Assembly (NCBI GenBank): GCA_014376985.1
Contig: JACMQM010000034.1
Span: 1-35,328 of the forward strand
DNA from: Cytophagaceae bacterium
GTDB lineage: Bacteria; Bacteroidota; Bacteroidia; Cytophagales; Cytophagaceae
DNA length: 35,328 nucleotides
Reading direction: 5' to 3'
The notes beneath the pieces are model-generated. The model did not search any database, was not told the origin of the DNA, and saw only the letters and a list, made by a program, of their open reading frames with translations. The position numbers were made by a program, and so were the translations under genes. Position 1 is the first letter of the stretch. Each line of letters starts with the position of its first letter. Shown piece after piece: positions 1,346 through 35,328 of the stretch.

Positions 1346-1367
1346 TCTCCTACCAGTGGTAGGGAGA
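1346..1367. other. Short hairpin upstream of the SDR promoter
   Basis: TCTCCTACC (1346-1354) pairs with GGTAGGGAGA (1358-1367), with one bulged G and a three-base loop. It lies between the 44-residue gene and the SDR promoter and has no T-run. It may protect the 3' end of the upstream transcript; no specific role can be shown. Confidence -1.
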
Positions 1368-1399
1368 GCGAATTTAGTCTCCAATTCAAAAATAACTTG

Positions 1400-1407
1400 T
1401 ACTTTTG
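1400..1407 (+). promoter_or_regulatory. Bacteroidota -7 element directly in front of the SDR gene
   Basis: TACTTTTG is a perfect TAnnTTTG match and ends only 5 bases before the ATG at 1413. With the usual geometry the transcript would start at or within a few bases of the start codon, so the mRNA would be leaderless or nearly so. No clear TTTG -33 element is seen at the expected distance. Confidence -1.
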
Positions 1408-1412
1408 TTCCT

Positions 1413-2186
1413 ATGAGCTATATCGTCATCACAGGAGGAAGTAAAGGAATAGGTAAAGCTTTTGCCTATGAATTGGCCGCTAAAAAAAATAACCTTTTTC
1501 TCATTGCCCGTTCGGAAAACGAACTGAATATCTTGGCAGATGAATTGAAAAATCAATACGGCATAGAGGTAATAACCCTCGCACTTGACCTGTCTACAGC
1601 CGACTCCGCGCAATGTATAGCAGACTATATTACAGAACGAAAATTAGCCATAGACACATTGATTAACAATGCAGGCTATGCCGTTTGGGGAAATTTTGAA
1701 AGCAATAGTATGGAAGAGCAAAACCGTATGTTGTGGCTGCACATACAAACGGTGACCAACCTCACTTATCTATTGCTTCCTATTTTAAGAAAAGAAAAAC
1801 AAGCCTACATCCTCAACATAGCCAGTACCGCTGCCTACCAGGCTGTACCTACGTTGGCTCTTTACGCTGCCAGCAAATCCTTTGTACTTTCTTTTTCCCG
1901 CGCACTATGCTTCGAACTTCGTCATTCTAATGTGTCGGTCACTTGTGTAAGTCCCGGGCCTGTCAATACCAACTTTGTGAACCGCGCCGGAATGCATGCC
2001 ATAGCGGAGACCGCAGAAAAATTCGGAATCAGTCCCACGGAGTTGGCTCAAAAAGCATTGAAAGCACTATACAATCGCAAAACAGAATATGTACCCGGTA
2101 TTTCTAATAAATTAGGCGTCCTTTTTGCCACTCTTTTTCCTAAAAAGTTAGTAGAAACGGTGGTATCTACTTTTTATAAGCATTAA
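1413..2186 (+). CDS. Short-chain dehydrogenase/reductase (SDR), DltE/YqjQ-like
   Basis: A 257-residue classical SDR, NAD(P)-dependent and cytosolic. From the ATG at 1413 the landmarks are the Rossmann motif TGGSKGIG (residues 7-14), NNAG (85-88), the catalytic Ser in NIAST (about 138) and YAASK with Tyr151 and Lys155. SPGPVNTNF follows the active site, as in classical SDRs. An upstream in-frame start at 1356 would add 19 residues with no SDR similarity and would place the TAnnTTTG promoter inside the gene, so I prefer 1413. Arg33 (IAR) after strand beta-2 suggests NADP preference. The substrate is not predictable. The gene stands alone: 226 bp upstream is a FAD oxidoreductase and 261 bp downstream a PhyH-like gene on the same strand. 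Confidence -1.
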   Translation: MSYIVITGGSKGIGKAFAYELAAKKNNLFLIARSENELNILADELKNQYGIEVITLALDLSTADSAQCIADYITERKLAIDTLINNAGYAVWGNFESNSMEEQNRMLWLHIQTVTNLTYLLLPILRKEKQAYILNIASTAAYQAVPTLALYAASKSFVLSFSRALCFELRHSNVSVTCVSPGPVNTNFVNRAGMHAIAETAEKFGISPTELAQKALKALYNRKTEYVPGISNKLGVLFATLFPKKLVETVVSTFYKH

Positions 2187-2242
2187 AAAACAGCTTAATT
2201 CTTTCAATTTCTCGCTTTAGTTGTATGTTTCCCAATTGTTAT

Positions 2243-2273
2243 TTTGAAATTAAAGTTAAATAAACTATACTTG
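2243..2273 (+). promoter_or_regulatory. Bacteroidota-type promoter, -33 TTTG and -7 TATACTTG
   Basis: TTTG (2243-2246) and TATACTTG (2266-2273, one mismatch to TAnnTTTG) are separated by 19 bases, the usual spacing for Bacteroidota primary sigma factor promoters. Transcription would start near 2276-2280, giving a leader of about 170 bases before the PhyH-like gene that includes a 28-codon open frame. Confidence -1.
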
Positions 2274-2295
2274 TTCTATAGAATTAGTATAATAT

Positions 2296-2382
2296 ATGAA
2301 ACAAGTAAAAACCATAGTCCACTTTTCAGAAACAGCAAAACGAAGCACACAGACTAATACAGCCTATGGTTGTTGTAGTTAG
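2296..2382 (+). CDS. Possible 28-residue leader peptide or small protein
   Basis: ATG to TAG encodes 28 residues beginning MKQVKTIVHF and ending AYGCCS. It starts about 16-20 bases after the predicted transcription start of the promoter at 2243-2273 and ends 65 bases before the PhyH-like start. The Lys/Thr-rich sequence with a terminal Cys-Cys matches nothing I recognise. It may be a small peptide, an upstream open frame, or chance; the only support is its position after a good promoter. Confidence -1.
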   Translation: MKQVKTIVHFSETAKRSTQTNTAYGCCS

Positions 2383-2447
2383 TTCCTATCCATTTGTCTT
2401 TAGAGGCTGTATCTACTCAATCACTCACATTAAATAAGCATTATACC

Positions 2448-3248
2448 ATGACGAATTACCCTACTTTCACACTCGGAGAAAAAATTACAGCAGAACAATT
2501 AGCTTTCTTCAACCAACATGGATTTATTCATTTCAAAAAATTCATTCACCAGGAAGCGATCGACACGTTGGTAAATGGTTCCAAAAAAGTAGAACACGAA
2601 TGGGTCAGCAAGAATCGTTTAAAAGCGAATGGTGTACCCATTAAATATGGAAAGGACCTGAATGGAAGTACCATTGTGCAACGCTTTGCTTTTATCAATC
2701 AACACAATCCTGTGTTTTCAGAAGTACTCTTCGACCCCAGGTTTGAAGCTTTGACTCAAATTGTACCGGGATCAAGAATCGGCGATCAGGAAAAAGACGG
2801 TATGGTACTGAACCATTACATCAATGGACCTGAAAGTAAATTCACTCAAATGGGCTGGCATACGGACGGTCTTAGAGACTTATTCTACGGTACCTTGCCT
2901 TTGCCTATGTTAAATGTAGGCATTCACCTGAGCACGCTTAAACCAGAAAATGGAGGATTAAGAATTTTACCGGGCACACACAAGCAAGGTTTATTCAAAA
3001 CCATTTTTAGAAAAAAATACTTCCTAGATACGAGACCGGACAAAAACGAAATCGCTATCGTACCGGAGGCGGGCGACTTAACGGTACACGACGGAAGGCT
3101 ATGGCACAGGGTCGCTAAGTCTACCATAGCTGGAGAAGAAAGCAGAAGAAGGGTAATTTATGTTCCCATCATTACAGGTAAAGTGGACGTTAAAACGGAA
3201 AGTAGTCCTACTCTCTTTTACCAAAAACTGAATGGATTGGTAAAATAA
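2448..3248 (+). CDS. Phytanoyl-CoA dioxygenase (PhyH)-family Fe(II)/2-oxoglutarate oxygenase
   Basis: A 266-residue cytosolic protein with the PhyH fold. Iron ligands are visible as WHTDG (His138, Asp140) and a distal His in HDGRLWHRV (His214 or His220); the Arg cluster ESRRRV (about 233-235) would bind the 2-oxoglutarate carboxylate. The N-terminal block LAFFNQHGFIHFKKFI is typical of the family, and GGLRILPGTHKQG is the conserved strand between the iron ligands. Members hydroxylate varied substrates, from acyl-CoAs to small metabolites, so the substrate is unknown. The ATG at 2448 starts right before the conserved block; an upstream alternative start (2394) adds 18 unrelated residues. A nested hairpin with seven Ts follows the stop. 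Confidence -1.
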   Translation: MTNYPTFTLGEKITAEQLAFFNQHGFIHFKKFIHQEAIDTLVNGSKKVEHEWVSKNRLKANGVPIKYGKDLNGSTIVQRFAFINQHNPVFSEVLFDPRFEALTQIVPGSRIGDQEKDGMVLNHYINGPESKFTQMGWHTDGLRDLFYGTLPLPMLNVGIHLSTLKPENGGLRILPGTHKQGLFKTIFRKKYFLDTRPDKNEIAIVPEAGDLTVHDGRLWHRVAKSTIAGEESRRRVIYVPIITGKVDVKTESSPTLFYQKLNGLVK

Positions 3249-22183: not shown

Positions 22184-23476
22184 CTATTTAGAGACAACGA
22201 TGGTTTTAGCACCAATGAATTTCAGATCGGGATAAATCTTATTATTAATATCAATAAACAGCTCCGTTGGCTTAGCATCGGACAAAATATTCTTCACCGG
22301 CTGAATTTCTAACTGCTTTCTTAGTTCTTCTGCATTATTACCATTGAACAAACTACTCATTCCATTGAACGAATTATTTTCAATGCTGACAATTCCTTTC
22401 ACAAGATCATCCTTATAAGCAGCATTTTTTACTTTGAAAATGTTAGTAAAACCTGATACCGTAGAATTGGAGAGAGAGACCTGACAGTCCGGACCAATTT
22501 GAACGGCCTCTGCACAAAAAGATGTTTTGTTGTTGCCGTTAAGATCATATTGAATCAACGTGAAATTATATGCCTTTAATTTTGTTATCCTTTTGTTGGG
22601 ATCAAATCCTTTCTTATCAGAATTGTAACTATCAATTTCAAAACAACGAGAACCGGAAAAATCTCCAATTAAAGGGTTTCGGAACGCAATGCCTTGCTGC
22701 ACTTTTCCCTGATACCCGTAATTGAAGTCAAAGTCATCGTCATTGCATTTGTAAGAAATAATATTATTCAGTTCTACCGATCCACCGTACGACTCGAAGG
22801 AATCATCATTGGAATAACTAATTTGCACATGATCAATAATTGTATGTTGTCCAATAGCAGCTAAAGTAAGACCGTTAAATTCTTCGTCTATTTTTATTTT
22901 ATTGCCTGGATATTCTACACGTACATAACGGATAATACCTGAATTGTCTTCATCATTGTCACCACCATACTGTGTATACTTAGTATCCAGCCCCCAGTCA
23001 ATGGCACTCATGCCTCCTATATGATTGGTCGTTCCATTTCCAATCAATATAATTCCGCCCCAATCACCGGACTTTCTTTCTCCGACAGATTTGTTGGAAG
23101 TGAAAATAATAGGATCTCTTTCCGTTCCTGATGCTATGATCTTAGAACCTTTTGTGATAACCAAAGTACCACACGTTTCAGATTCTCCTCTGATGACTGT
23201 TCCAGGCTCGATGGTCAAAACAGCTTTATTGGTTACATATACAGCACCTGACAAAAGGTATGTATTCTTATTGCTCAAAGTTAAATCCTTATCGATGATG
23301 CGAGGAATGATCAAATTATGAGCCATGTAATGATTGCCGTTAGGAGCAAAACTTGTCCAGTTTTTTGTCCAGTCCTGCTCTCCGATTGCACCTCGGTATC
23401 CATCTATGTCAGGCTGTTGAGCCCATGAAATAGTCCCTACAAAAATAAATATCATTAAATAATAGCTGGTTTTCAT
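22184..23476 (-). CDS. Secreted right-handed beta-helix protein
   Basis: 430 residues with a signal peptide (about 1-19, ending ISWAQ). The body has a parallel beta-helix pattern: repeated short strands with Ile/Val/Gly turns, LTIEPGTVIRGESETCGTLV, GDWGGIILIGNG, IRYVRVEYPGNKIK, LNNIISYKCNDDDFDFNYGY. The IEPGT and GDWGGI phrases are typical of Bacteroidota secreted proteins that often lie near phosphate-starvation or outer-membrane receptor genes. Unlike those, I see no T9SS C-terminal sorting domain; the chain ends KFIGAKTIVVSK. Enzymatic residues are not evident; a carbohydrate- or surface-binding role is possible. The small secreted protein upstream is 22 bp away, so the two are probably one operon. 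Confidence -1.
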   Translation of the reverse strand: MKTSYYLMIFIFVGTISWAQQPDIDGYRGAIGEQDWTKNWTSFAPNGNHYMAHNLIIPRIIDKDLTLSNKNTYLLSGAVYVTNKAVLTIEPGTVIRGESETCGTLVITKGSKIIASGTERDPIIFTSNKSVGERKSGDWGGIILIGNGTTNHIGGMSAIDWGLDTKYTQYGGDNDEDNSGIIRYVRVEYPGNKIKIDEEFNGLTLAAIGQHTIIDHVQISYSNDDSFESYGGSVELNNIISYKCNDDDFDFNYGYQGKVQQGIAFRNPLIGDFSGSRCFEIDSYNSDKKGFDPNKRITKLKAYNFTLIQYDLNGNNKTSFCAEAVQIGPDCQVSLSNSTVSGFTNIFKVKNAAYKDDLVKGIVSIENNSFNGMSSLFNGNNAEELRKQLEIQPVKNILSDAKPTELFIDINNKIYPDLKFIGAKTIVVSK

Positions 23477-23498
23477 TTTCTATCGCATTAAGAGTGTA

Positions 23499-23948
23499 TC
23501 AATTGTCTTTACCAAGCAATAATTTTCTAATCATTTCCTCGTATAATAAAATAGACCAGATGATATTATCACTGTCTGCGTAAGCGATAAAATTATCTAA
23601 TGTCACGCTAAACGCTTGATTCAATTGTTCAGTTGCTTTTGCTTCTTTTTCAATCAAAGATTTATTCTCGGAATTTTCAGGAACACCTAACACGCTGAGT
23701 GTAACGCCAGGCTTATTGGAAAGCGCAGTGTAAGGCAATAGATAAGTAATGACTTTGAAGCGATCCTTATAGATGGCAATCAATTCACCTTTGTTCTTGC
23801 TTTTCAAATCAGACATCGTATGAAATTTATCGACACTGGCATCTGCATTGACCAATACAATCTCTTTGTTGTTCTTACTCTGTGCCTGTGTCTCCTCGCC
23901 CCCAGCCAGCAAACAAAAAATGCTTATACTTAACAATAACCTCTTCAT
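23499..23948 (-). CDS. Small secreted protein of unknown function (149 aa)
   Basis: The better start is the ATG at 23948, beginning MKRLLLSISIFCLLAGGEE; the longer frame adds seven residues (MYEKVKG). A signal peptide (about 1-22, ending ETQAQ) directs it to the periplasm or outside. The mature part is mixed alpha/beta: KEIVLVNADASVDKFHTMSD, ELIAIYKDRFKVITYLLPYT, then a helical tail with LDNFIAYADSDNIIWSILLY. No family recognised. It is co-oriented with and 22 bp from the beta-helix protein. A weak -7 element (TTGCTTTG on the minus strand, 23967-23974) lies just upstream. Confidence -1.
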   Translation of the reverse strand: MKRLLLSISIFCLLAGGEETQAQSKNNKEIVLVNADASVDKFHTMSDLKSKNKGELIAIYKDRFKVITYLLPYTALSNKPGVTLSVLGVPENSENKSLIEKEAKATEQLNQAFSVTLDNFIAYADSDNIIWSILLYEEMIRKLLLGKDN

Positions 23949-24516: not shown

Positions 24517-24582
24517 TTGATAAAAATCAACTATTACAACCTCCTATGATTAATAATAGGTTTTGCTGGCGAGTTATCTTTG
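24517..24582 (+). promoter_or_regulatory. FNR-type box and -7 element of methyltransferase cassette 1
   Basis: TTGATAAAAATCAA (24517-24530) is a perfect TTGAT-N4-ATCAA palindrome. The -7 element TATCTTTG (24575-24582) starts exactly 58 bases after the box starts. If the -7 element spans -10 to -3, the box is centred near -61.5, the class I activator position. There is no TTTG at -33, which fits activator dependence. The gene starts at 24621, 38 bases downstream. Confidence -1.
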
Positions 24583-24620
24583 TACCTCTAGTAATTGTGG
24601 TTGTAACAAGATTTGAAAGT

Positions 24621-25256
24621 ATGATAATTGAAAACCTAAAAAAGCAAAAACAATCTATATTAAATGGCGATTTCGAACTTGTTTATTCTACTGAAATAAT
24701 GGCATTGTCCAATCAGCATTGGACACCAAGCGATGTAATAAAAGAAACTCTGAATTTTCTCTGCATTAAAGAAAACTCTAAAATCATAGATATTGGAAGT
24801 GGTGTTGGGAAATTTTGTATTAGCGGAGCTGTTTTAAAACCCAAATGTTCCTTTTATGGTGTAGAGTGTAGAGAGAAATTTGTCGACATTTCAATTAAGA
24901 TTAAAGATGATTACCGCATTGATAATTCATATTTTATTAATAGAGATTTTTCAGCTATAGATTTCAATAATTTCAATGGAGTTTATTTCTTCAATTCCTT
25001 CCAAGAAAATATCGATGACAAAGCGGTAATTGATGAATTAAGTCAGCTTTCATATGACTTATACTGTAGGCATAATCAAAATCTGTATCTAAAATTAAAT
25101 AATATGCCTGAAGGTACAAGGTTAGCAACTTATCAGACAAACGATATTTTTATTCCAAATTCTTATAAAATCACAGAAAACGGCTTTGAGACTAAATTGA
25201 AATTCTATGTCAAAAATAATGATGTAGATAAAAACACTTCAATCTATGAAAACTAA
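24621..25256 (+). CDS. Class I SAM-dependent methyltransferase, island paralogue 1
   Basis: 211 residues from the ATG at 24621. The frame stays open 25 codons further upstream, but that part overlaps the promoter, and the paralogue at 28104 starts at the same relative point (both 16 residues before DFxLVYS). SAM-binding motif I is KIIDIGSGVGKFCISGA (about 54-70), followed by the acidic FYGVECREKFVDIS. A family-specific block, GVYFFNSFQENID, and MPEGTRLATYQ near the C-terminus are shared with the other island copies. The NSF block occupies motif IV, where N/D-PPY occurs in amino-methyltransferases, so the target group is not predictable. It heads an operon with three or four genes and overlaps the next by 11 bp. 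Confidence -1.
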   Translation: MIIENLKKQKQSILNGDFELVYSTEIMALSNQHWTPSDVIKETLNFLCIKENSKIIDIGSGVGKFCISGAVLKPKCSFYGVECREKFVDISIKIKDDYRIDNSYFINRDFSAIDFNNFNGVYFFNSFQENIDDKAVIDELSQLSYDLYCRHNQNLYLKLNNMPEGTRLATYQTNDIFIPNSYKITENGFETKLKFYVKNNDVDKNTSIYEN

Positions 25257-25458
25257 GCATGAATTATTAAGAGAAGGTGTTACTAAAGTCAAAGACATGG
25301 GTTTTAGAATGGTGGACACCGAAAATATATATTATGATGAAGTCTATAGTGCTTATTTCCATAATATGCTAATTCAAAAGAAAGGGACTAGCAGATACTT
25401 AGACGAAGTAATTGATGAAATTATAAAAGAAATAGAATTTAAATCAAATCCAACATGA
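25246..25458 (+). CDS. Unknown 70-aa protein between methyltransferase and LMW-PTP-like protein
   Basis: Starts MKTKHELLREGVTKVKDMGF; acidic, probably mostly helical, with YYDEVYSAYFHNMLIQKKG and a C-terminal helix YLDEVIDEIIKEIEF. It overlaps the methyltransferase gene by 11 bp and the next gene by 4 bp (ATGA), so it is certainly translated as part of the operon if the operon is. No family recognised. The second cassette has no counterpart: there the methyltransferase and phosphatase-like genes are separated by only 28 bp. A partner or antagonist of either neighbour is possible. Confidence -1.
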   Translation: MKTKHELLREGVTKVKDMGFRMVDTENIYYDEVYSAYFHNMLIQKKGTSRYLDEVIDEIIKEIEFKSNPT

Positions 25459-25889
25459 AAAAAAAAACAATACTTGTAGTGTGCGATGACAACGTCATTT
25501 ACAGTAAACTTGCTGAAGCATATCTTATAAAATTTGCAGGGCACTGGAAAAATACTTTTAGCGCTGGTATAAACATTACAGATAAAAAAGTATCTCCAGA
25601 TCTCAAAATTATATTAACAGAAGATCAATTAGAAAACAGTATAGCATATTCATTAAAGAATATTAAAGATTTTGAAATAAACTCTTATGATTACATACTT
25701 GCATTAACTCCAAATGCTCATGAGTATTGCAAAAATAATATCCCGAAAAAAGAAATCGCCTTATTAACGATTAATTCACTCAAGACTGAACAAGTAGAGT
25801 CCGTATATGAAGTTAGCAAAGAAATAAAATCAGAATTATTGAAATTTGTTAAAAATGGTCCCATCAAAAGATGGATAGAATTTAACTAA
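25455..25889 (+). CDS. LMW-PTP/ArsC-fold protein lacking the signature Arg, copy 1
   Basis: 144 residues with the fold order of low-molecular-weight protein tyrosine phosphatase or arsenate reductase: KTILVVCDDNVIYSKLAEAY matches VCxGNxCRSxMAEA, then FSAGIN (the SAG strand) and SYDYILALTPNA. The nucleophile Cys10 is kept, but the C-x5-R Arg is Tyr16, the second Cys of the P-loop is Ile, and no DPY/F general-acid loop is recognisable near the C-terminus. The extra cysteines of thioredoxin-type ArsC are also missing. It may bind a phosphorylated or other anionic ligand, or act as a Cys-based sensor, but classical phosphatase activity is unlikely. The C-terminus NGPIKRWIEFN is nearly identical to that of copy 2. 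Confidence -1.
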   Translation: MKKKTILVVCDDNVIYSKLAEAYLIKFAGHWKNTFSAGINITDKKVSPDLKIILTEDQLENSIAYSLKNIKDFEINSYDYILALTPNAHEYCKNNIPKKEIALLTINSLKTEQVESVYEVSKEIKSELLKFVKNGPIKRWIEFN

Positions 25890-25937
25890 TCTAAAGGATT
25901 AAAAATCCTCCATGACCTATAAAAATACTAATTACAA

Positions 25938-26540
25938 ATGGATATCATTTACATTCTTGATTTAATAGGAACATTTGCATTTGCAGTTAGCGGAACGATA
26001 TCAGGTACAGAAAAAAAACTGGATCTATTTGGAGGGGCAGTTATCGCTTTTGTAACGGCGATTGGCGGTGGAACCCTACGGGATCTTCTTATAGGTAGTA
26101 GGCCAGTTCATTGGATTACGGACCTCAATTACTCATATGCAATTTTTCTGGCGATCATACTGAGTTACCTTTTAAAAGCCTCCATTCTAAAGTATAAAAA
26201 AACAATGTTCTTATTCGATGCGATTGGAATTGGAATTTTCACAATTATAGGTGTACAAAAAACATTATCATTCGGGTTAATGCCTATTATAGCTATAATG
26301 ATGGGTACAATATCGGCTGTATTTGGAGGTGTTATTAGGGATATACTATGTAATAGGATTCCGAGTATTTTAAGAAAAGAAATATATGCGACGGCATGTG
26401 TAATAGGAGCAATTTTATTCTTAATTCTTGATTGCTTCTTACTAAATATGAATGTTACCATTTCGATTACTATTTTAACTATCATAGTAATTAGAATATT
26501 TGCGATAAAAAAAGGTTGGTCATTACCCGTCTTATATTAA
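25938..26540 (+). CDS. TRIC-family (UPF0126, YicG-like) membrane channel
   Basis: 200 residues, about seven hydrophobic segments arranged as two repeats. Repeat 1 has DLIGTFAFAVSGTISG and AIGGGTLRDLLIG with PVHWI; repeat 2 has DAIGIGIFTIIGVQK and VFGGVIRDILCNRIP. These are the hallmark glycine and Arg-Asp motifs of prokaryotic TRIC channels, trimeric inner-membrane cation (K+) channels. It follows the phosphatase-like gene by 48 bp and precedes the SpeE-like gene by 24 bp on the same strand, so it probably belongs to the FNR-box operon. Physiological role in this context is not known; charge balance during membrane energy changes is one possibility. Confidence -1.
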   Translation: MDIIYILDLIGTFAFAVSGTISGTEKKLDLFGGAVIAFVTAIGGGTLRDLLIGSRPVHWITDLNYSYAIFLAIILSYLLKASILKYKKTMFLFDAIGIGIFTIIGVQKTLSFGLMPIIAIMMGTISAVFGGVIRDILCNRIPSILRKEIYATACVIGAILFLILDCFLLNMNVTISITILTIIVIRIFAIKKGWSLPVLY

Positions 26541-26564
26541 TTTCTAAAAAATAATTCGGGATAC

Positions 26565-27221
26565 ATGATTTCTACTATTAAAAAAAAACTTAGTTATATT
26601 TATCCGATTACACAAACAGTAAGTTCTTTGTATAATGGGACTCTCGAGATAACATATATAAACGGCAAAAAAATATTAAATACCCAAAACACTAATTACT
26701 CCTTTGGGAGCTTGCATAAAGTAATGCAGTTCTCATTAAACCGAATCATTATAAAAGGAGACTCTCCTATACTTTTACTAGGACTAGGCGGAGGATCTGC
26801 GGTAAAAATTATACGAAGTGAATTCTTAAAGAAAAACCACATCGATATCGTAGATATTGACTCGGTAATGATAGAAATTGCCAGAAAGGAATTTGGGTTA
26901 AACGATTATTCTGATCTAAAAGTATATTGTCAAAATGCATCTTCTTTTGTAGAAGAAACGAATAACAAATATGGACTCGTTATTATAGACTTGTTCATCG
27001 ACAAAATCACTCCAGAATATTTTTATGACAGCATTTTTTGGACAGATGTGCTTATGCTAACTAAAAAGAAATGCTGCATAATATTTAATACATTAACCGC
27101 TAATAATTTTACAGATAAGATTAATTGTATTAACAAGATGTTAATCGATGCTAAATTCGAAGTGTATAGTTATAAAGAGATAGAATTATCAAACACTGTT
27201 TTGATTGCAAAAAGAAGATAA
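26565..27221 (+). CDS. Spermidine-synthase-like SAM-binding protein
   Basis: 218 residues with the C-terminal fold of the SpeE family. ILLLGLGGGSAVKIIRSEF is the nucleotide-binding loop, HIDIVDIDSVMIEIARKEFGL the acidic strand and helix, and YGLVIIDLFIDKITPEYFY the substrate-side segment. The short N-terminal tetramerisation sheet of true SpeE is reduced (GTLEITYINGKKIL). The DAxD polyamine-gate motif of genuine aminopropyltransferases is replaced by DLFID, as in the many SpeE-like proteins of unknown substrate. It could be an aminopropyl- or methyltransferase. It is the last plus-strand gene of cassette 1 and ends 13 bp from the convergent regulator gene. Confidence -1.
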   Translation: MISTIKKKLSYIYPITQTVSSLYNGTLEITYINGKKILNTQNTNYSFGSLHKVMQFSLNRIIIKGDSPILLLGLGGGSAVKIIRSEFLKKNHIDIVDIDSVMIEIARKEFGLNDYSDLKVYCQNASSFVEETNNKYGLVIIDLFIDKITPEYFYDSIFWTDVLMLTKKKCCIIFNTLTANNFTDKINCINKMLIDAKFEVYSYKEIELSNTVLIAKRR

Positions 27222-27234
27222 AGGAAATCCAATT

Positions 27235-27957
27235 TTAAATCCCTCTATGGGGGAATTGATAATTAGACTCCTTTATAAGTTCTTTAACATTATTGATTAC
27301 AATGCTTCTTCCACTTACGGTAATAATATCAAGGGTTTTAAACTCATGTAAAAGCCTGACCAAATTTTCTTTCGCAGTACCTACAAGCGCCGAAAGATCA
27401 TCCCTACTAATATTAATTTGTGTTTTAACAGTTGAATCTGGGGATTGCAACTTCTCCTTTAAAAGTAGTAAATGTAATGCTAATCGCTGTCTAACTGACA
27501 TCTGAGAAATGATAGTCAATGTGTTTATCAAAACGCCGAATTCATGACTAATATTTTTCAATAACAAGTTTGACAGCTGCGGTGATTTTTCAACTAACTC
27601 AATAAATATACTTTTTGGAATAAAACAAATAACGGAATCTTCCATTGCAGCGGCAGAATCAGGATAGTTTTCATCGCTTAAAATGGCATGGTAGCCTATA
27701 ATATCAGCCGTTTTAGATATGTAAAATATTTGTTCTTTACCATCATTTCCTGTTTTGTACTTTTTTACTAAGCCTTGTTTTATATAGTAAATTCCTGTTG
27801 CAGGACTATCTTCGTAAAAGATGACTTGTTTTTTTTTATAAAGTCTAGTTTTAAGATGAGAATTCAAATAATCCAAATCTTTTTCACTTAAACCACTGAA
27901 AACTGAATCTGAATTGAAGTGAAATTTACTAAAAGAAAATTGATCTAAGGTTTTCAT
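27235..27957 (-). CDS. Crp/Fnr-family transcriptional regulator
   Basis: 240 residues. A cNMP-binding-like sensor barrel (about 20-130, with KKKQVIFYEDSPATGIYYIK), a dimerisation helix (about 128-165) and a winged helix-turn-helix (about 181-222). The recognition helix GTAKENLVRLLHEFK keeps Glu197 and Arg201 at the FNR Glu209 and Arg213 positions; FNR Ser212 is Val200. The N-terminus has no Cys cluster and only Cys111 is present, so it is not a 4Fe-4S FNR; a cyclic nucleotide or haem/NO-type ligand cannot be read out. It shares an intergenic region with methyltransferase 2, holding a perfect TTGAT-N4-ATCAA box. The best candidate regulator for the four island boxes, and possibly autoregulated. 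Confidence -1.
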   Translation of the reverse strand: MKTLDQFSFSKFHFNSDSVFSGLSEKDLDYLNSHLKTRLYKKKQVIFYEDSPATGIYYIKQGLVKKYKTGNDGKEQIFYISKTADIIGYHAILSDENYPDSAAAMEDSVICFIPKSIFIELVEKSPQLSNLLLKNISHEFGVLINTLTIISQMSVRQRLALHLLLLKEKLQSPDSTVKTQINISRDDLSALVGTAKENLVRLLHEFKTLDIITVSGRSIVINNVKELIKESNYQFPHRGI

Positions 27958-27990
27958 TAAGGGGACACCATTGAAGTGATATTTGTAAGG

Positions 27991-28067
27991 TATGCTAATT
28001 ATTGATATAAATCAATTATTAGCATATCGTATGCTCAATTAGCATTTCCTAATTCTACTTAACTTTA
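27991..28067 (+). promoter_or_regulatory. Extended palindrome with FNR-type box, and -7 element of cassette 2
   Basis: TTGATATAAATCAA (28002-28015) is the core of a 36-bp near-perfect palindrome (27991-28026, 18-bp arms with two mismatched pairs). The -7 element TAACTTTA (28060-28067, one mismatch) begins 58 bases after the box start, the same spacing as in cassette 1 and the 33.2 kb copy. TCAATTA at box+33 is also shared with the 33.2 kb promoter. Further AGCAT/ATGCT half-sites follow to 28045. The divergent regulator gene starts at 27957, 34 bases from the palindrome edge. Confidence -1.
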
Positions 28068-28103
28068 CTTAAATATGTATACACATTCTTCGCTTATATA
28101 AAG

Positions 28104-28724
28104 ATGGTACTAAACAACCTTATAAAACCAATAGACTTGATCACAGATAAAGATTTTGATCTTGTCTATTCGCCAGCAATTAGAGCTTTATCTAGTCGAC
28201 ATTGGACATCTATCAAAATTGTAAAAAAGGCTGTTAACTTTTTGTGTTATAAAGAAAATACTAAGATACTCGACGTAGGCAGTGGAGTAGGTAAATTCTC
28301 TATTCTTGGAGCTCTGTTAAAAGCTAGTAATTTTTTTTACGGAGTTGATTTCAGAAAGGACTTTATTGAGATTTCAGATAACCTTAAAAAAGAGCACCGA
28401 ATTGAAAATGTGTTTTTCTTACACAACTATTTTGACAAAATAGATTTTAATAATTTTGATGGCATATATTTTTTCAATTCCTTTCATGAAAGAATTGATA
28501 AGGATACCGTGATCGATGAATTGAGTGAGTTTTCATATGATTTATATAAAAAATATACTCAAGAGTTTTTTCTAAAGATTAATTCTATGTCAGAAGGTAC
28601 ACGATTAGTTACATACCATACTGAAGATATCCATATCCCTTACACATACCGAATTGTTGATATGCATTTTGAAGGCAAACTTAAATTCTATATCAAATGT
28701 TTGGATGAAGGAGATCTTGAATAA
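28104..28724 (+). CDS. Class I SAM-dependent methyltransferase, island paralogue 2
   Basis: 206 residues and clearly paralogous to the 24621 gene over its whole length: DFDLVYSPAIRALSSRHWT, KILDVGSGVGKFSILGALL, FFYGVDFRKDFIEIS, GIYFFNSFHERIDKDTVIDE, MSEGTRLVTYHTEDIHIPY. The SAM motif DVGSGVGKF is intact. Conservation is strong at motif I, YFFNSF and EGTRL-TY; the N-terminal 15 residues and the C-terminus are divergent, as expected where partner or substrate differ. It has its own FNR-type promoter and is followed 28 bp later by the second phosphatase-like gene. Cytosolic; the substrate is unknown. Confidence -1.
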   Translation: MVLNNLIKPIDLITDKDFDLVYSPAIRALSSRHWTSIKIVKKAVNFLCYKENTKILDVGSGVGKFSILGALLKASNFFYGVDFRKDFIEISDNLKKEHRIENVFFLHNYFDKIDFNNFDGIYFFNSFHERIDKDTVIDELSEFSYDLYKKYTQEFFLKINSMSEGTRLVTYHTEDIHIPYTYRIVDMHFEGKLKFYIKCLDEGDLE

Positions 28725-28752
28725 ATAAAAAATCAAATAAATAATAACAAAG

Positions 28753-29184
28753 ATGAAAAAAAACATACTTATAGTCTGCGATAACAATACGCTTTACAGC
28801 AAGCTGGCAGAGGCATACTTCAAGAAATATGCCGGACATTGGAAAAACATATTCAGTGCTGGAATTAACATTGATAGCGTGTTGGTATCTGAAACGCTAA
28901 AGGTAATACTAGCAGAAGATAATTTAGAATCAACAATAGATTATACACTAAAAAGTGTAAAGGAGTACAATCTTAATTCGTTTGATTACATCATTGCTTT
29001 GACAGAACAGTCATTCAACGATTTGAAAAAGGAATTACCTGAGGACCGGATTATATTGGTAAATATTGAAACCATAAGAGGACAAAAAATGAATTCACTA
29101 GAAAGTATCAATGACAAAATAAAATTAGAATTGTTTGAATTCGTTAAAAAGGGGCCTATAAAAAGGTGGCTGGAGCTAAACTAA
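28753..29184 (+). CDS. LMW-PTP/ArsC-fold protein lacking the signature Arg, copy 2
   Basis: 143 residues, paralogue of the 25455 gene. ILIVCDNNTLYSKLAEAYF keeps Cys9 but has Tyr15 where the C-x5-R Arg belongs, so the same substitution occurs in both copies and is not random decay. FSAGINI and SFDYIIALTEQS are also shared, and the end is KKGPIKRWLELN. No DP general-acid motif. It lies between methyltransferase 2 and the DUF983 gene (33 bp), the same place relative to the methyltransferase as copy 1. The constant pairing suggests a functional complex or ligand shared with the methyltransferase. Confidence -1.
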   Translation: MKKNILIVCDNNTLYSKLAEAYFKKYAGHWKNIFSAGINIDSVLVSETLKVILAEDNLESTIDYTLKSVKEYNLNSFDYIIALTEQSFNDLKKELPEDRIILVNIETIRGQKMNSLESINDKIKLELFEFVKKGPIKRWLELN

Positions 29185-29217
29185 TTACTTAACAATATAA
29201 CCTTCTATGCGGTAGAT

Positions 29218-29604
29218 ATGAAACCCGATTTCGTTCTTTTGGCCATGTTAAAATTAAAATGCCCTCAATGCCGAAAGGGAGATATGTTTTTGTACTCTAA
29301 TATGTATAGTTTTAAAAAATTTGCAGCTATGCCTAGAAATTGCACTTGCTGTGGTTTAAACTTAATGCCCGAACCTGGCTTTTATACCGGTGCAATGTAT
29401 ATCAGTTATGGCTTGAATGTGGCATTATTTACACCAGGATTCATCATAACAGCAACCTGCAATTTATCTTTTACAAAGTTCATTTTGCTATATTTTTTTC
29501 TAGTCATAGGAGCATCCGTTTATATATTCCGACTGTCGCGGGCGATATACTTGTATATTTTCATTGACTATAATCCCAAATTATCAAATTGTAATAATAA
29601 ATGA
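29218..29604 (+). CDS. DUF983 small membrane protein with two Cys pairs
   Basis: 128 residues. LKCPQCRKGDMFLYSN and CTCCGLNLMPEPGFYTGAMY are the two CxxC halves of the DUF983 zinc-ribbon-like motif, followed by two hydrophobic helices (about 62-80 and 84-104) and the family end IYLYIFIDYNP. In Bacteroidota the family is common and unassigned; in Alphaproteobacteria it is often near respiratory oxidase genes. The last eight residues (KLSNCNNK) are not typical of the family and are encoded by a stretch that shares an 18-base identity with 24005-24022. It is in line with cassette 2. Confidence -1.
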   Translation: MKPDFVLLAMLKLKCPQCRKGDMFLYSNMYSFKKFAAMPRNCTCCGLNLMPEPGFYTGAMYISYGLNVALFTPGFIITATCNLSFTKFILLYFFLVIGASVYIFRLSRAIYLYIFIDYNPKLSNCNNK

Positions 29605-29671
29605 GGGCATTTCAATTGATATAAAACTAATAAAAAATATTACACAGAAGCTTACTCTATATTAAAAACGT

Positions 29672-31084
29672 ATGTATAATTTAATTCTAGTTATACTTAT
29701 CCCAGTTATTGCTTTATTATTCTTGCCAATTAAAAAAAACAATCGTCCACTGTTTTTTTTAATGTTAATTGCCTCTGCAATAATTTGTATTGGGTTATCC
29801 TTTAATATTTCCTTAAACACAAGGATATCCTTACCATCACTTGGGATTATTTTAATAGTTGATAAAATTTCCAGGGTATTTTTAATCCTAATTTCTTGTA
29901 CTTGGTTAATTTCTATAATTTATAATTATGACTATGGGAAATATAATTTCAAAGAAAAACAAACACAATTCTTCTTATACCTGAATGTTTTATTATCAGT
30001 TGTCATGATAAACGCCTGTGCTGGTAACTTGATAACTTTATTCATTTTTTATACTATAGGCATACCATTGACATATCCATTAATTAATATCAGAAACACA
30101 GAAGAATCTCAACAGGCAGCATCTGGATTTATTAAACAAACCCTCTTACCTGCCTTTTTTATTTTTTTACCGGCTATAATTATTACGCAGATTATTTTGG
30201 GCCATATCGATTTTAATAGCACATCAACTCTTGGTTCAAACAAGATTAACCCCTTAATCGGTGGTGGGTTGTTATTTATGTATGTGATTGGTATTTCAAA
30301 AAACTCTATTTTCCCATTCAGCACATGGCTGCCAGGCACTAGTTCGGCTCCAGCTCCAGTTAGTGGGCTCATACATTCCGTTGCTACCGTGAAAACAGGA
30401 TCAATAGCATTAATGAAAATTGCAATTTATATATTTGGATTAGACTATATTCATAAACTTACTTCAAATTTCATTACCGGTGGCTGGCTTACGTATTTAT
30501 GTGGATTCACGGCAGTTTACACGGCCTATAAAGCATTAAAGACAGATGATTTAAAACAAAGATTTACCTACTCTACAGTAGGACAATTATCCTATATCAT
30601 TTTAGCCATATTAATAGGAACAAAGACCGGTATTATAGCTGGGTTATTGCATTTGGTGACTCATGCCATTGCAAAATCTTGTCTTTTCTATGTCGTGGGT
30701 TTTTATGGCAGTGTATATGGCACCGTTTCTGTAAGGAAAATAGGTGAAATAATTCCTTCAACCAGGTTTATCGCATTTGTAATAGCTGTATGTGGATTAA
30801 GTATTACGGGATTCCCATTCTTAGCAGGCTATTATAGTAAAGATATGATGCTAATTGAAGAATGGAATAATCATTACTATGCCTCCGCTATCTTTTTAGT
30901 TATTGGAGCAATTATAAATCTGTTCTATATTATTGGTCCTATAAAAAATGCATTCAAAACTCCTTCAGTAGATCTAAAAATAAAACCTGTGCCAAAGTCA
31001 ATGATGATAGTATTTACCATATCCATTTTACTTCTGATTGGTGCTAATTTTTACATGTCATTTCTGACATTAATTATTAAATAA
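29672..31084 (+). CDS. Stand-alone proton-translocating membrane subunit, NuoL/NuoN/MrpD-like
   Basis: 470 residues, about 13-14 hydrophobic helices, with the Proton_antipo_M core. KNSIFPFSTWLPGTSSAPAP and VSGLIHSVATVKTGSIALMK (split across about 209-248) correspond to the FPxHxWLPxAxxxPxPVSALIHxAxMVxAG block, with the His replaced by Ser in IFPFSTW. DLKQRFTYSTVGQLSYI and HLVTHAIAKSCLFYVVG (Lys in the helix-8 region) are further family motifs, and the discontinuous-helix end SITGFPFLAGYYSKDMM is present. It is shorter than NuoL and has no long lateral helix. No other complex I, Mrp or DabA gene is nearby, so it may be a single-subunit or orphan transporter. It is 67 bp after DUF983 and probably the tail of cassette 2. 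Confidence -1.
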   Translation: MYNLILVILIPVIALLFLPIKKNNRPLFFLMLIASAIICIGLSFNISLNTRISLPSLGIILIVDKISRVFLILISCTWLISIIYNYDYGKYNFKEKQTQFFLYLNVLLSVVMINACAGNLITLFIFYTIGIPLTYPLINIRNTEESQQAASGFIKQTLLPAFFIFLPAIIITQIILGHIDFNSTSTLGSNKINPLIGGGLLFMYVIGISKNSIFPFSTWLPGTSSAPAPVSGLIHSVATVKTGSIALMKIAIYIFGLDYIHKLTSNFITGGWLTYLCGFTAVYTAYKALKTDDLKQRFTYSTVGQLSYIILAILIGTKTGIIAGLLHLVTHAIAKSCLFYVVGFYGSVYGTVSVRKIGEIIPSTRFIAFVIAVCGLSITGFPFLAGYYSKDMMLIEEWNNHYYASAIFLVIGAIINLFYIIGPIKNAFKTPSVDLKIKPVPKSMMIVFTISILLLIGANFYMSFLTLIIK

Positions 31085-31150
31085 AAGATGTGTTCATCAA
31101 CAAAATAAATTAAATCATAAAACTATTAGCAACAGATTCTTAATCCGCAC

Positions 31151-31759
31151 TTAAATCAAACTGGATTTGTCTTTTATCCATAATTTTAGTTGATGGTTAA
31201 AAGAGGTCTGATAGACCGTATAGCAAGAAGGTATATCTCTCACAATACAACAATATGTCGCTAATCTAGTCCCTATAGGAGCTTTAAGAAGTTGTAAACA
31301 CATATAATCTCGATACTGTTGGTAGTGTAGATTGGAGGTTGTGACACTACAATCCATCATCCTGCTTTTTTCTATGTTTTCATAAAATGAATTGAAAAAA
31401 TAATAAGAATTGTAAGCTAAAAAATCAATATCGATTATATTTGAATGCAATATTTTCACATTATGTACATGATGATCACTAATGATTTGTCTTGAAATAT
31501 CAACTAGCTCCTTTCTTTGTTCTACGCCATAAAAAACTCCCAAAGTAGTTAAAGCTCCTACAATACAAAATTTACCAACGCCACTTCCTATGTCTAAAAC
31601 TTTTGTATCACTACTTTGTACCAAAAAAGACGCTGCCTTTTTTGCAACCTCTATAGAAGTCCAATGCAGTTCAGATAGACTTTGAATGTAAGGTGAATAT
31701 AACTTATCAAAATCAATATCAGAAATCGGTAGATCGTATCGAATAGATTGTATTATCAT
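31151..31759 (-). CDS. Class I SAM-dependent methyltransferase, island paralogue 3
   Basis: 202 residues on the opposite strand from copies 1 and 2. Shared landmarks: DFDKLYSPYIQSLSELHWTS, KVLDIGSGVGKFCIVGALT, VFYGVEQRKELVDIS, YFFNSFYENIEKSRMMD, APIGTRLATYCC. It is more divergent than copies 1 and 2 in the middle and lacks an adjacent phosphatase-like gene. It ends convergently with the NuoL-like gene (66 bp). A near-perfect FNR-type box (31862-31875) lies 103 bases upstream; on this strand a weak -7-like TAAATTCA starts 57 bases from the box. The substrate is unknown. Confidence -1.
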   Translation of the reverse strand: MIIQSIRYDLPISDIDFDKLYSPYIQSLSELHWTSIEVAKKAASFLVQSSDTKVLDIGSGVGKFCIVGALTTLGVFYGVEQRKELVDISRQIISDHHVHNVKILHSNIIDIDFLAYNSYYFFNSFYENIEKSRMMDCSVTTSNLHYQQYRDYMCLQLLKAPIGTRLATYCCIVRDIPSCYTVYQTSFNHQLKLWIKDKSSLI

Positions 31760-31861
31760 AGGATGTTATATTACAATTGTCTTATTCAATTAAACTATAA
31801 TTATTGGATTGAATTTATTTTGCCGGTCTCATAAATATAGGTTAATAATAGAATATACCTA

Positions 31862-31926
31862 TTGATTAAAGTCAACTTATAGATTGATTAAACAGCTATA
31901 AAAATGCTATTAATGTGGTATCTTAG
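31862..31926 (+). promoter_or_regulatory. FNR-type box between methyltransferase 3 and a small membrane protein
   Basis: TTGATTAAAGTCAA (31862-31875) matches TTGAT-N4-ATCAA with one changed base. On the plus strand TATCTTAG (31919-31926, one mismatch to TAnnTTTG) starts 57 bases after the box start, serving the 41-residue gene at 31981. On the minus strand TAAATTCA (31818-31811, two mismatches) is equally spaced for methyltransferase 3. A single box may therefore drive both directions. Confidence -1.
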
Positions 31927-31980
31927 TTATCATTGATAACTATATAATCCATATCTAAAATACAAGATCAATTATACCTT

Positions 31981-32106
31981 ATGACACGCTATTTTAAATC
32001 CATCCGTCGATTCTACAAAAAACATGAAGCATACATGAAAATAGATTTGATCATGTATGCTACATTCATCGTAGCATTCGTCATTTTTTTTATATTCTTT
32101 GCGTAA
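31981..32106 (+). CDS. 41-residue single-pass membrane protein
   Basis: ATG to TAA gives 41 residues: a basic amphipathic start (MTRYFKSIRRFYKKHEAYMK) then one hydrophobic helix (about 22-40, LIMYATFIVAFVIFFIFF) ending at the membrane. The positive-inside rule puts the N-terminus in the cytoplasm. Short proteins of this shape are found as accessory subunits of respiratory oxidases and of transporters, but I do not recognise this one. It has a plausible FNR-type box and -7 element upstream (31862-31926) and is 29 bp from the convergent FabH-like gene. It is too short for usual gene calling. Confidence -1.
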   Translation: MTRYFKSIRRFYKKHEAYMKIDLIMYATFIVAFVIFFIFFA

Positions 32107-32135
32107 TCGCTAAAGTAAACCGAATTGACACTACT

Positions 32136-33107
32136 TTATACTTCAATAATTATCCCTGCAAAGGTTAATCCTCCACCAAAACCTAGAAGCAATAATTTGT
32201 TGCCTTTTTTCACCTTTCCTGCTTTTATCCCAAGATCCCAGGCGATTGGAATAGAAGCTGCTGAAGTATTTCCATATTGTTCAATACTTGTCAGCATTTT
32301 ACTTAAAGGATAATCGAGAGCTGCAGCAACAGCTTCAATGATCCGCATGTTAGCACTATGTAGAATTAACCAATCTAAGTCCCCAAGTTTCAAATTATTC
32401 CTCTCTAGCAATTCTTTAACTTTAAAGACCATATTTTGTACGGCCCATTTAAATACAACCTTACCGTTTTGATGAATTTTACCATTGGCTATTATTTCTT
32501 CATTATTGATAATACTATTACCATGCGATAAGTATAAATCTTTTCCATGACTACCATCCGTACCCGTTATTCCATTAAATATTTTCGCATCACTAGATGG
32601 TTCTATCAAGACTACGCCTGCTCCATCACCAAACAATATACAAGATGAGCGATCTGTATAGTCTGTAAATTTAGATAACGTTTCAGCTCCAATTACCAAT
32701 ATTTTTTTATGTGTTTTCGCAGCAATTAATCCCTTGGCTAATATCATTGCATATACAAAACCGGCACAGGCTGCCATCACATCTATGCATCCTGCATTAG
32801 TAATATTTAGTTTGTGTTGTACTTGGCTTGCTGTATTAGGCATGATCTGATCAGCAGTGGTCGTAGCAACAATAATGAAGTCAATACCTTCTAAGCTAGT
32901 ACCATGATTTTCCTTTAATAAGTTTTGTACTGCTTTTACCGCTAATTCACTTGTGTATTCATATTTAGAGGCAACTCGTCTTTCTTTAATTCCTGTCCTG
33001 CTCTGAATCCATTCATCATTGGTGTTAATGATATTTTCAAACCATGTATTTGGAATAACATTTTCAGGAGTATAGACCCCAATTGCAGAAATTTTAGAAT
33101 TCATCAA
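32136..33107 (-). CDS. Beta-ketoacyl-ACP synthase III-like (FabH family)
   Basis: 323 residues, full FabH length, cytosolic. The thiolase-fold landmarks are the N-terminal NDEWIQSRTGIKERR, the catalytic Cys114 in MAACAGF, His250 in LILHSANMRI and Asn280 in YGNTSAAS, so the Cys-His-Asn triad is intact. The usual HQAN (ACP-binding) reads HSAN. FGDGAGVVLIEPS is also typical. It starts fatty-acid or a polyketide-like chain by condensing an acyl-CoA with malonyl-ACP. It is a lone copy here with no fab or acyl-carrier gene beside it, which suggests an accessory and not the housekeeping enzyme. It is divergent from the methyltransferase pseudogene, with a FNR-type box in the shared upstream region. 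Confidence -1.
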   Translation of the reverse strand: MMNSKISAIGVYTPENVIPNTWFENIINTNDEWIQSRTGIKERRVASKYEYTSELAVKAVQNLLKENHGTSLEGIDFIIVATTTADQIMPNTASQVQHKLNITNAGCIDVMAACAGFVYAMILAKGLIAAKTHKKILVIGAETLSKFTDYTDRSSCILFGDGAGVVLIEPSSDAKIFNGITGTDGSHGKDLYLSHGNSIINNEEIIANGKIHQNGKVVFKWAVQNMVFKVKELLERNNLKLGDLDWLILHSANMRIIEAVAAALDYPLSKMLTSIEQYGNTSAASIPIAWDLGIKAGKVKKGNKLLLLGFGGGLTFAGIIIEV

Positions 33108-33201
33108 TGATAGTTTTAATTAGCGGTAATCAATACTTTATATCCAGCCTTCCAGCTGAATAATGCGAGGCCTAATTTACTGAAAATAAAAAAAAGTAAT
33201 A

Positions 33202-33267
33202 TTGATAAAAATCAACAATTATACTTATCCAAGTTCAATTAATATACTCATCAGACATTTATATTTG
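33202..33267 (+). promoter_or_regulatory. FNR-type box and -7 element upstream of the methyltransferase pseudogene
   Basis: TTGATAAAAATCAA (33202-33215) is the same 14-mer as at 24517. TATATTTG (33260-33267), a perfect TAnnTTTG, begins exactly 58 bases downstream of the box start. TCAATTA occurs at box+33 as in cassette 2. The promoter is intact although the gene behind it is broken. The divergent FabH-like gene starts 95 bases to the left. Confidence -1.
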
Positions 33268-33268
33268 A

Positions 33269-33595
33269 CAACGGAAAAAATCAAACGTCTTTATCAAAAA
33301 GAAGAATAAAACAAAGGAACAGATACAGAATACGCTGGATGAAGATTTTGACTTAATATATTCTGATAAAATCAGGAACTTTTCAAAACGTAACTGGACA
33401 CCTATTAGAATAATAAATGCAGCTGTCGATTTTCTCTGTTATAAAAAAAATCTAAAAATACTTGACACAGGAAGTGGAGTTAGTAAATTTTGCATCATCG
33501 CTGCTTTACTTGATTGCAAGAATTATTTTTATGGCGTAGATTATTGAAAGGATATATAGCAATTTCAAATAACCTGAATTTGCTATATAAAATTG
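33269..33595 (+). pseudogene. Fourth methyltransferase copy, decayed
   Basis: The frame open from 33269 to the TGA at 33545-33547 encodes the N-terminal half of the same family: EDFDLIYSDKIRNFSKRNWT, FLCYKKNLKILDTGSGVSKF, CKNYFYGVDY. There is no ATG: the codon aligned with the start of copies 1 and 2 (33296-33298) is AAA. The G-x-G motif has GVSKF for GVGKF. The TGA falls where copies 1 and 2 have Arg (CREKF, FRKDF), as from CGA to TGA. After it the similarity continues in a shifted frame (AISNNLNLLYKI, compared with EISDNLKKEHRI) to about 33595 and then stops. The remaining 100 residues are gone. From 33596 to 33741 I see nothing further. Confidence -1.
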
Positions 33596-35103: not shown

Positions 35104-35328
35104 TTAAAGTAACGTGTTCATATCACGGCTTGTCTTTTTAAAGACCGGTTTGAATTGAGCGAAGGGATCTTTTGTCAACCATTCATACTTCACAGCCATG
35201 TTCATGATCTTTCTGAAACGTTCGATGTGTTTCATGGCTGTATTTTGTCCGCAGGGTTTTTGATGGTCCTTCGGTTTATGTGATTTTAAGAATAGTTCGA
35301 AGTCTTTGATGAACTTGTAGTTTAACTG
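35104..35328 (-). pseudogene. Tyrosine recombinase core-binding domain, truncated remnant
   Basis: An open frame runs from the right window edge to the TAA at 35104-35106 (74 residues in view). LNYKFIKDFELFLKSHKP, then MKHIERFRKIMNMAVKYEWL and TKDPFAQFKPVFKKTSRDMN match the SAM-like core-binding domain of Bacteroidota site-specific integrases. In intact proteins the catalytic domain follows with a Leu-Thr/Ser-x-x-E-L motif; here the frame ends MNTLL-stop, so the catalytic R-H-R-Y region is absent. The N-terminus lies beyond the window. A broken integrase, with no downstream continuation seen in any frame to 35048. Confidence -1.

Follow-up and report, generated by a model that had tools for sequence, protein, structure and literature searches.

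Here we describe a 9-kb stretch (positions 24,517 to 33,595) of a 35,328-nucleotide window, contig JACMQM010000034.1 of the Cytophagaceae bacterium assembly GCA_014376985.1, in which FNR-type palindromes precede genes for class I S-adenosylmethionine (SAM) methyltransferases (MTs) and a gene for a Crp/Fnr-family regulator lies among them. We propose, with a probability of about 0.68, that this stretch is an expanded version of a module conserved in Bacteroidota, in which a dedicated Fnr-like class I activator would control a local carbon/ion regulon. The module itself is real and conserved; its probable mode of control, Fnr-type class I, is a familiar one, but we found no description of the module in the open-access literature. 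Its sites, their spacing, the linkage of MT and regulator and the recurrence of the cargo genes can be read from genome sequences. The Fnr-like protein encoded at 27235-27957 would bind NTGAT-N4-ATCAN boxes placed 57-59 bp before a TAnnTTTG element and would activate from a class I position, with the box centre near -61.5 to -63.5. At least two operons are predicted to lie under these boxes, MT1-X70-PTP-TRIC-SpeE and MT2-PTP-DUF983-NuoL; a pair formed by a small open reading frame (ORF) and MT3 is probably also box-controlled, and a fourth copy appears to have decayed. Each putative operon opens with a class I SAM MT followed by membrane transport genes, and the regulon most likely tunes inorganic-carbon/anion supply together with ion or pH balance.

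A pattern search recovered all four boxes listed in a first-pass annotation of this DNA, three perfect TTGAT-N4-ATCAA palindromes (24517, 28002 and 33202) and one with a single mismatch (31862), and confirmed their spacing, counted from the start of the box to the start of a TAnnTTTG-like -7 element (Table 1). The mismatched box can be read in both directions: on the + strand it lies 57 bp before TATCTTAG (one mismatch), ahead of a 41-aa membrane ORF, and on the - strand, towards MT3, it lies 58 bp before a poor TAAATTCA (two mismatches). The promoters of the stretch resemble one another over only ~21 bp, around the box. Two parts of the first-pass annotation were revised at this point: its four MT cassettes are three intact MTs and one pseudogene (33311-33565) interrupted by stops, and the FabH-like gene that it counted as a target was dropped, as no promoter at matching spacing was found towards FabH. 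It had also placed the site centre at -61.5, in a register that sets the -7 element at -10 to -3. Class I FNR sites are centred at -61.5 (PMC4886647), and the Flavobacterium -7 element has been mapped at -12 to -5 (PMC9723704), a register that moves the box centre to about -63.5. Class I Crp/Fnr sites in general are centred near -61.5 or lie whole helical turns further upstream, with the bound protein touching the C-terminal domain of the RNA polymerase alpha subunit. From either centre such contact would be possible, and the exact value of -61.5 is one of two candidates.

The same geometry recurs in other genomes. In a subset of those with the MT family, the MT adjoins a homologue of the stretch regulator, mostly divergently. 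In the comparative search that the first-pass annotation had called for, we compiled a table of 65 lead MT genes, of which 22 adjoin the regulator and 43 do not, and scored the arrangement as NTGAT-N4-ATCAN located 57-59 bp before TAnnTTTG with at most one mismatch in the box and the -7 element together. This arrangement was present in 18/22 regulator-linked and 3/43 unlinked lead MT genes. Dinucleotide shuffles of the 22 linked upstream regions averaged 0.03 such cases and never exceeded 1, and a scan of offsets 45-71 in the linked promoters detected one single match outside 57-59, at 68. The three unlinked genes (MT1 of the stretch and genes in G631 and G697) all come from genomes in which the regulator is encoded at another site, which suggests that the regulator may act in trans. 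Ten diverged promoters were compared; spacer identity was 35% (27% when shuffled) as against 97% in the TGAT/ATCA cores, and the distance is therefore kept while the intervening sequence is not. The earlier proposal that FNR-type boxes stand at a class-I-like distance before the MTs, with the Crp/Fnr gene as their likely regulator, is supported in that other genera and families show the same box, the same distance and the same pairing of MT with regulator. A second TGAT half-site, ~22 bp or about two helical turns downstream of the first, was seen in eight promoters (L138, L178, L180, L182, L184, L188, L203 and L241) and is possibly a weaker second site.

A strict form of the pattern gave 10 matches in 18 genomes and none in reversed controls. 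Seven matches lie at the MT/regulator locus and one, a box with 58-bp spacing at 2909-3845 of L208 (G466:C8), lies away from the MT loci, upstream of genes for a universal stress protein and phosphoenolpyruvate (PEP) synthase; the other two (G485 and G390:C7) were set aside as they fall inside ORFs. The objection foreseen in the first-pass annotation, that box and spacing might be equally frequent at unrelated promoters, does not hold among these genomes. The genome motif scan that it suggested, run as pattern searches of the whole 3.88-Mb source genome, detected 33 perfect palindromes, 26 inside ORFs and seven outside. The latter comprise three in this 9-kb stretch, two terminator-like stems (C207a and C337) and one that abuts the 3' end of an ORF (C225), none of these last three being retained as extra targets, and one other. 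The box followed after 30-60 bp by an exact TAnnTTTG occurred three times, twice in the stretch and once in a terminator-like stem, and relaxing the core to TTGA-N6-TCAA at 41-48 bp produced no further genome matches. The sole other promoter-like perfect box of the genome, on contig C207 (L066 6279-6322, G000:C207), lies 36 bp before TACTTTTG, a class-II-like spacing. The gene downstream of it is weakly F420-oxidoreductase-like, a LigB dioxygenase gene and a YceI-like gene are close by, and the site possibly marks a second Crp/Fnr regulon.

The regulator combines a cNMP_binding domain (PF00027, 69 bits) with a Crp-type helix-turn-helix (PF13545, 41.5 bits), which places it in the Crp/Fnr superfamily, and is closest to FNR in both PDB and NCBIfam. 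Its single cysteine is Cys111, and the N-terminal cysteines that ligate [4Fe-4S] in O2-sensing FNR were found in 0/9 regulators examined; no cysteine is common to the nine homologues. FNR and CRP read the TGA core through a Glu and an Arg of the recognition helix, and both residues (E197 and R201) are invariant among the homologues. The recognition-helix Ser of FNR contacts the half-site towards its outer end; the helix of the stretch regulator reads ExxVR and not ExxSR, the Ser position is Val or Ile across the homologues, and the outermost half-site base of their boxes varies (C, T or A before TGAT). cAMP-responsive CRP makes its contacts through a Glu and an Arg-Ser pair of the phosphate-binding cassette; the aligned stretch here is IIGYHAILSDENYPDSAAAMED, in which a comparison by eye showed neither a CRP-like E nor RS. 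Identity to regulators adjoining MTs elsewhere is 41-54%. The nine best homologues among 395 Bacteroidia genomes score 323-405 bits and the next 269 bits; seven of these nine genomes also carry the MT, adjacent to the regulator in six and ~3 kb away in G221, and in the remaining two (G460 and G442) box and spacing precede other genes. A plasmid search detected only distant Crp/Fnr proteins (best 41%). In L242 (G340:C10) a more distant regulator (~50% identity) is transcribed away from Hyf-like pump genes, and that locus has no MT.

The three intact MTs of the stretch are 41-53% identical to MT2. Pfam Methyltransf_31 matches 26/26 members of the family, which have the DxGxGxGK motif, in keeping with the Rossmann-like fold and motif I of class I SAM methyltransferases, while Pfam DOT1 matches 8/26 weakly (MT1 scores 22.8 bits against a cut-off of 23). 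A predicted model of MT3 (predicted local distance difference test score, pLDDT, 88) has bacterial DOT1L (9ne1) as its best fold match (Z 16.6, root-mean-square deviation 2.8 over 165 residues, 14% identity), which likens it to the DOT1-like lysine methyltransferases. As tRNA methyltransferases Trm11/TrmN tie with DOT1L, as do aKMT and others, we dropped the fold as a guide to the substrate. A literature search on bacterial DOT1 returned nothing relevant in open-access sources, which does not prove absence. The family is scattered in Bacteroidia, in 17/395 class-sampled genomes and in 26/251 of one family that includes Pedobacter, and the lead MT is often duplicated in relatives. The idea that promoter and MT were copied as one unit fits MT1 and MT2, which are sisters; it fits less well with promoters alike over so short a length and with MT3, which groups with the MT of G008, its exact position being moderately supported; in G008, too, regulator and MT are divergent.

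Cargo genes provide the grounds for the functional part of our proposal. Behind boxed MTs or their own boxes, relatives carry SulP permeases, DUF983, X70, SpeE-like proteins, PhnA, bestrophin and DabA-DabB, with Hyf/NuoL-like pump subunits nearby, then an aminotransferase, PEPCK and a glycine-cleavage gene in two genomes, and carbonic anhydrase nearby in two genomes. SulP was present at 11/24 regulator loci and DUF983 at 9/24, each at 0/37 MT loci without the regulator, and any of SulP, DabA, carbonic anhydrase, bestrophin, Hyf or DUF983 at 21/24 versus 0/37; these counts are descriptive, as the loci are of unequal length. The cargo is thematically narrow across regulator loci and not the set of arbitrary attachments envisaged in the first-pass annotation. 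In G460, which has no MT, the box precedes X70-u96-DabA (PF10070, 699 bits)-DabB-DUF983, and G697 has separate boxes for DUF983-SulP and MT-MT, with spacings of 58 and 59. Inorganic-carbon systems described to date include SulP (BicA), bestrophins and DAB (PMC8438413, PMC13144422), hence the proposed role in inorganic-carbon supply. In G631 (L177-L178) a Hyf/complex-I-like set (PF00361 several times, PF00420, PF00346 and PF01058) lies between two MT pairs.

Several observations weigh against this interpretation. The box of G008 is perfect, yet TAnnTTTG is missing at 58, and the arrangement is absent in G310, G628 and G711. Cargo queries were chosen from regulator loci, and many loci come from one genus (g142), such that the counts are not independent. 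None of SulP, DabA, bestrophin or carbonic anhydrase is among the stretch genes tested, and its NuoL-like, TRIC, SpeE-like and PTP-like genes suit ion/pH balance no less than carbon. With nothing more than DUF983, a TRIC-type protein and a NuoL/MrpD-like subunit to go by, the stretch is explained equally by a role in ion or pH balance. The substrate of the SulP proteins may be sulphate and not bicarbonate, and the universal stress protein-PEP synthase pair of G466 and the PEPCK genes of G631 and G625 also fit a low-oxygen response. A further step, that the Fnr-like protein senses a signal other than oxygen, plausibly CO2/bicarbonate or the intracellular pH/ion state, and that the MT modifies a partner (a transporter, an RNA or a ribosome component) in response, seems less likely than not.

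Low oxygen is the main rival signal. The module may form a low-oxygen or nitrosative-stress regulon, with redox state, nitric oxide (NO) or O2 sensed through a ligand other than [4Fe-4S], such as haem, and with the transporters, PEPCK, PEP synthase and stress protein serving fermentative adaptation. The closest solved relatives of the regulator are FNR proteins, its box matches the consensus of FNR, the helix C region has an invariant His138, and the targets or neighbours include PEPCK and the universal stress protein-PEP synthase pair; we treat this alternative as possible without favouring it, since the N-terminal Fe-S cysteines are missing in all nine regulators examined, transport genes dominate the cargo, and inspection of the listed loci recognised no cbb3 oxidase, Hmp, Nos or Nor. 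A different kind of doubt concerns the identity of the activator. Five HTH_Crp_2 matches exceed the cut-off in the source genome, the stretch regulator included, and another Crp/Fnr protein of the cell could read the boxes, leaving the neighbouring gene as a passenger. This is improbable given that one regulator subfamily is linked with boxed MTs across genera and families and that boxed unlinked MTs are confined to genomes with this subfamily.

The remaining alternatives concern the spacing itself. It could be a relic of a copied promoter and MT unit under no functional constraint, as the sister relationship of MT1 and MT2 and the 21-bp similarity around their boxes might indicate. The persistence of the spacing across diverged genera with spacers near random identity, and before the non-MT genes DUF983-SulP, X70-DabA and universal stress protein, already contradicts this explanation, which we consider highly improbable. 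Chance palindromes in an AT-rich island (the region is 30-33% GC versus ~39% nearby) are also already contradicted, by the shuffles (at most one of 22) and the empty reversed controls, and can for practical purposes be discounted.

Comparison with known systems places the module close to class I control. It shares with E. coli FNR/CRP class I promoters the TTGAT-N4-ATCAA box, a probable position near -61.5 (PMC4886647) and a regulator of the Crp/Fnr fold, but differs from them in a regulator without N-terminal Fe-S cysteines, a variable outer half-site base (C/T/A), a Bacteroidota TAnnTTTG -7 element and a regulon that is apparently local rather than global. Homologues of DabAB, BicA-type SulP, bestrophin and carbonic anhydrase lie behind the boxes or beside the regulator in relatives; unlike the known inorganic-carbon genes, they occur here in Bacteroidota with an Fnr-type regulator and usually a leading MT, and the stretch holds only the NuoL-like subunit. 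DabA (PF10070) had no match among the stretch genes tested, and the DabA plus DabB pair that defines a DAB pump was not recognised among them. Searches of the open-access literature for an Fnr regulon in Bacteroidota that includes SulP/carbonic anhydrase, and for one in Mucilaginibacter, gave nothing relevant, although this does not prove absence. In Bacteroidota, where regulation is poorly mapped, site, position and targets are known for few regulators; here the regulator subfamily, site, promoter geometry and narrow target set are readable in many genomes, which opens the circuit to direct testing. Should the inorganic-carbon interpretation be true, these bacteria would have dedicated transcriptional control of CO2/bicarbonate supply via an Fnr-type protein, and a biological context for an orphan MT family, DUF983 and the X70 family. 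The combination of regulator, MT and inorganic-carbon/ion transport is unexpected.

Table 1. Boxes, -7-like elements and genes of the stretch
Feature	Coordinates	Strand	Evidence
FNR-type box TTGATAAAAATCAA, MT1 operon	24517..24530	+	perfect palindrome, 58 bp before TATCTTTG
TATCTTTG, -7-like element of MT1 operon	24575..24582	+	exact TAnnTTTG, 58 bp from box start
MT1, class I SAM methyltransferase	24621..25256	+	Pfam Methyltransf_31; 53% identity to MT2
X70, small conserved protein	25246..25458	+	homologues adjoin MT/regulator in G143, G221, G310, G460
LMW-PTP/ArsC-like protein 1, without catalytic Arg	25455..25889	+	PF01451; motif CDDNVIYS
TRIC/Gly_transporter-type membrane protein	25938..26540	+	PF03458, 158.9 bits
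SpeE-like protein	26565..27221	+	PF01564; G310 homologue in same position
Crp/Fnr-family regulator, without N-terminal Fe-S cysteines	27235..27957	-	PF00027 + PF13545; FNR subfamily best
FNR-type box TTGATATAAATCAA, MT2 operon	28002..28015	+	perfect, 58 bp before TAACTTTA
TAACTTTA, -7-like element of MT2 operon	28060..28067	+	TAnnTTTG with one mismatch
MT2, class I SAM methyltransferase	28104..28724	+	Pfam, alignment
LMW-PTP/ArsC-like protein 2, without catalytic Arg	28753..29184	+	PF01451; motif CDNNTLYS
DUF983 membrane protein	29218..29604	+	PF06170
NuoL/MrpD-like proton-antiporter-family subunit	29672..31084	+	PF00361, 124 bits; closest NCBIfam PRK06589
MT3, class I SAM methyltransferase	31151..31759	-	52-53% identity to regulator-adjacent MT of G008
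FNR-type box TTGATTAAAGTCAA	31862..31875	.	one mismatch; spacing differs by strand read
41-aa membrane ORF (short)	31981..32106	+	translation
FNR-type box TTGATAAAAATCAA ahead of MT4 remnant	33202..33215	+	perfect, 58 bp before TATATTTG
TATATTTG, -7-like element ahead of MT4 remnant	33260..33267	+	exact TAnnTTTG
MT4 remnant, truncated MT pseudogene	33311..33565	+	MT profile positions 6-90 of 206, 2 internal stops

Among the cargo of the stretch, the LMW-PTP-like genes noted in the first-pass annotation do encode PF01451 domains, a domain shared with LMW-PTP and arsenate reductase, and their best PDB matches are arsenate reductases. Both copies deviate from the CX5R active-site motif, and because its arginine is missing the two proteins are probably non-catalytic or binding proteins. 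Defence or phage cargo was considered and rejected, as PADLOC returned only generic methyltransferase-domain matches (mads_2) and PHROGs nothing informative.

The low-GC island that carries the module is probably lineage-specific, with the module expanded, and was perhaps acquired. The MT was not found in three congeners, the left-flank genes (22187-23948) have other neighbours in G001 and G002, and an N-terminal tyrosine recombinase fragment (Phage_int_SAM_5), cut by the contig end, lies beside the island at 35104-35328. Two genes named by eye, one short-chain-dehydrogenase-like and the next phytanoyl-CoA-dioxygenase-like, occupy 1356-3248 of the window at a distance of 21 kb from its MTs, and the same pair directly adjoins the MT-regulator pair of Pedobacter sp. 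HMWF019 (L021 377-2211).

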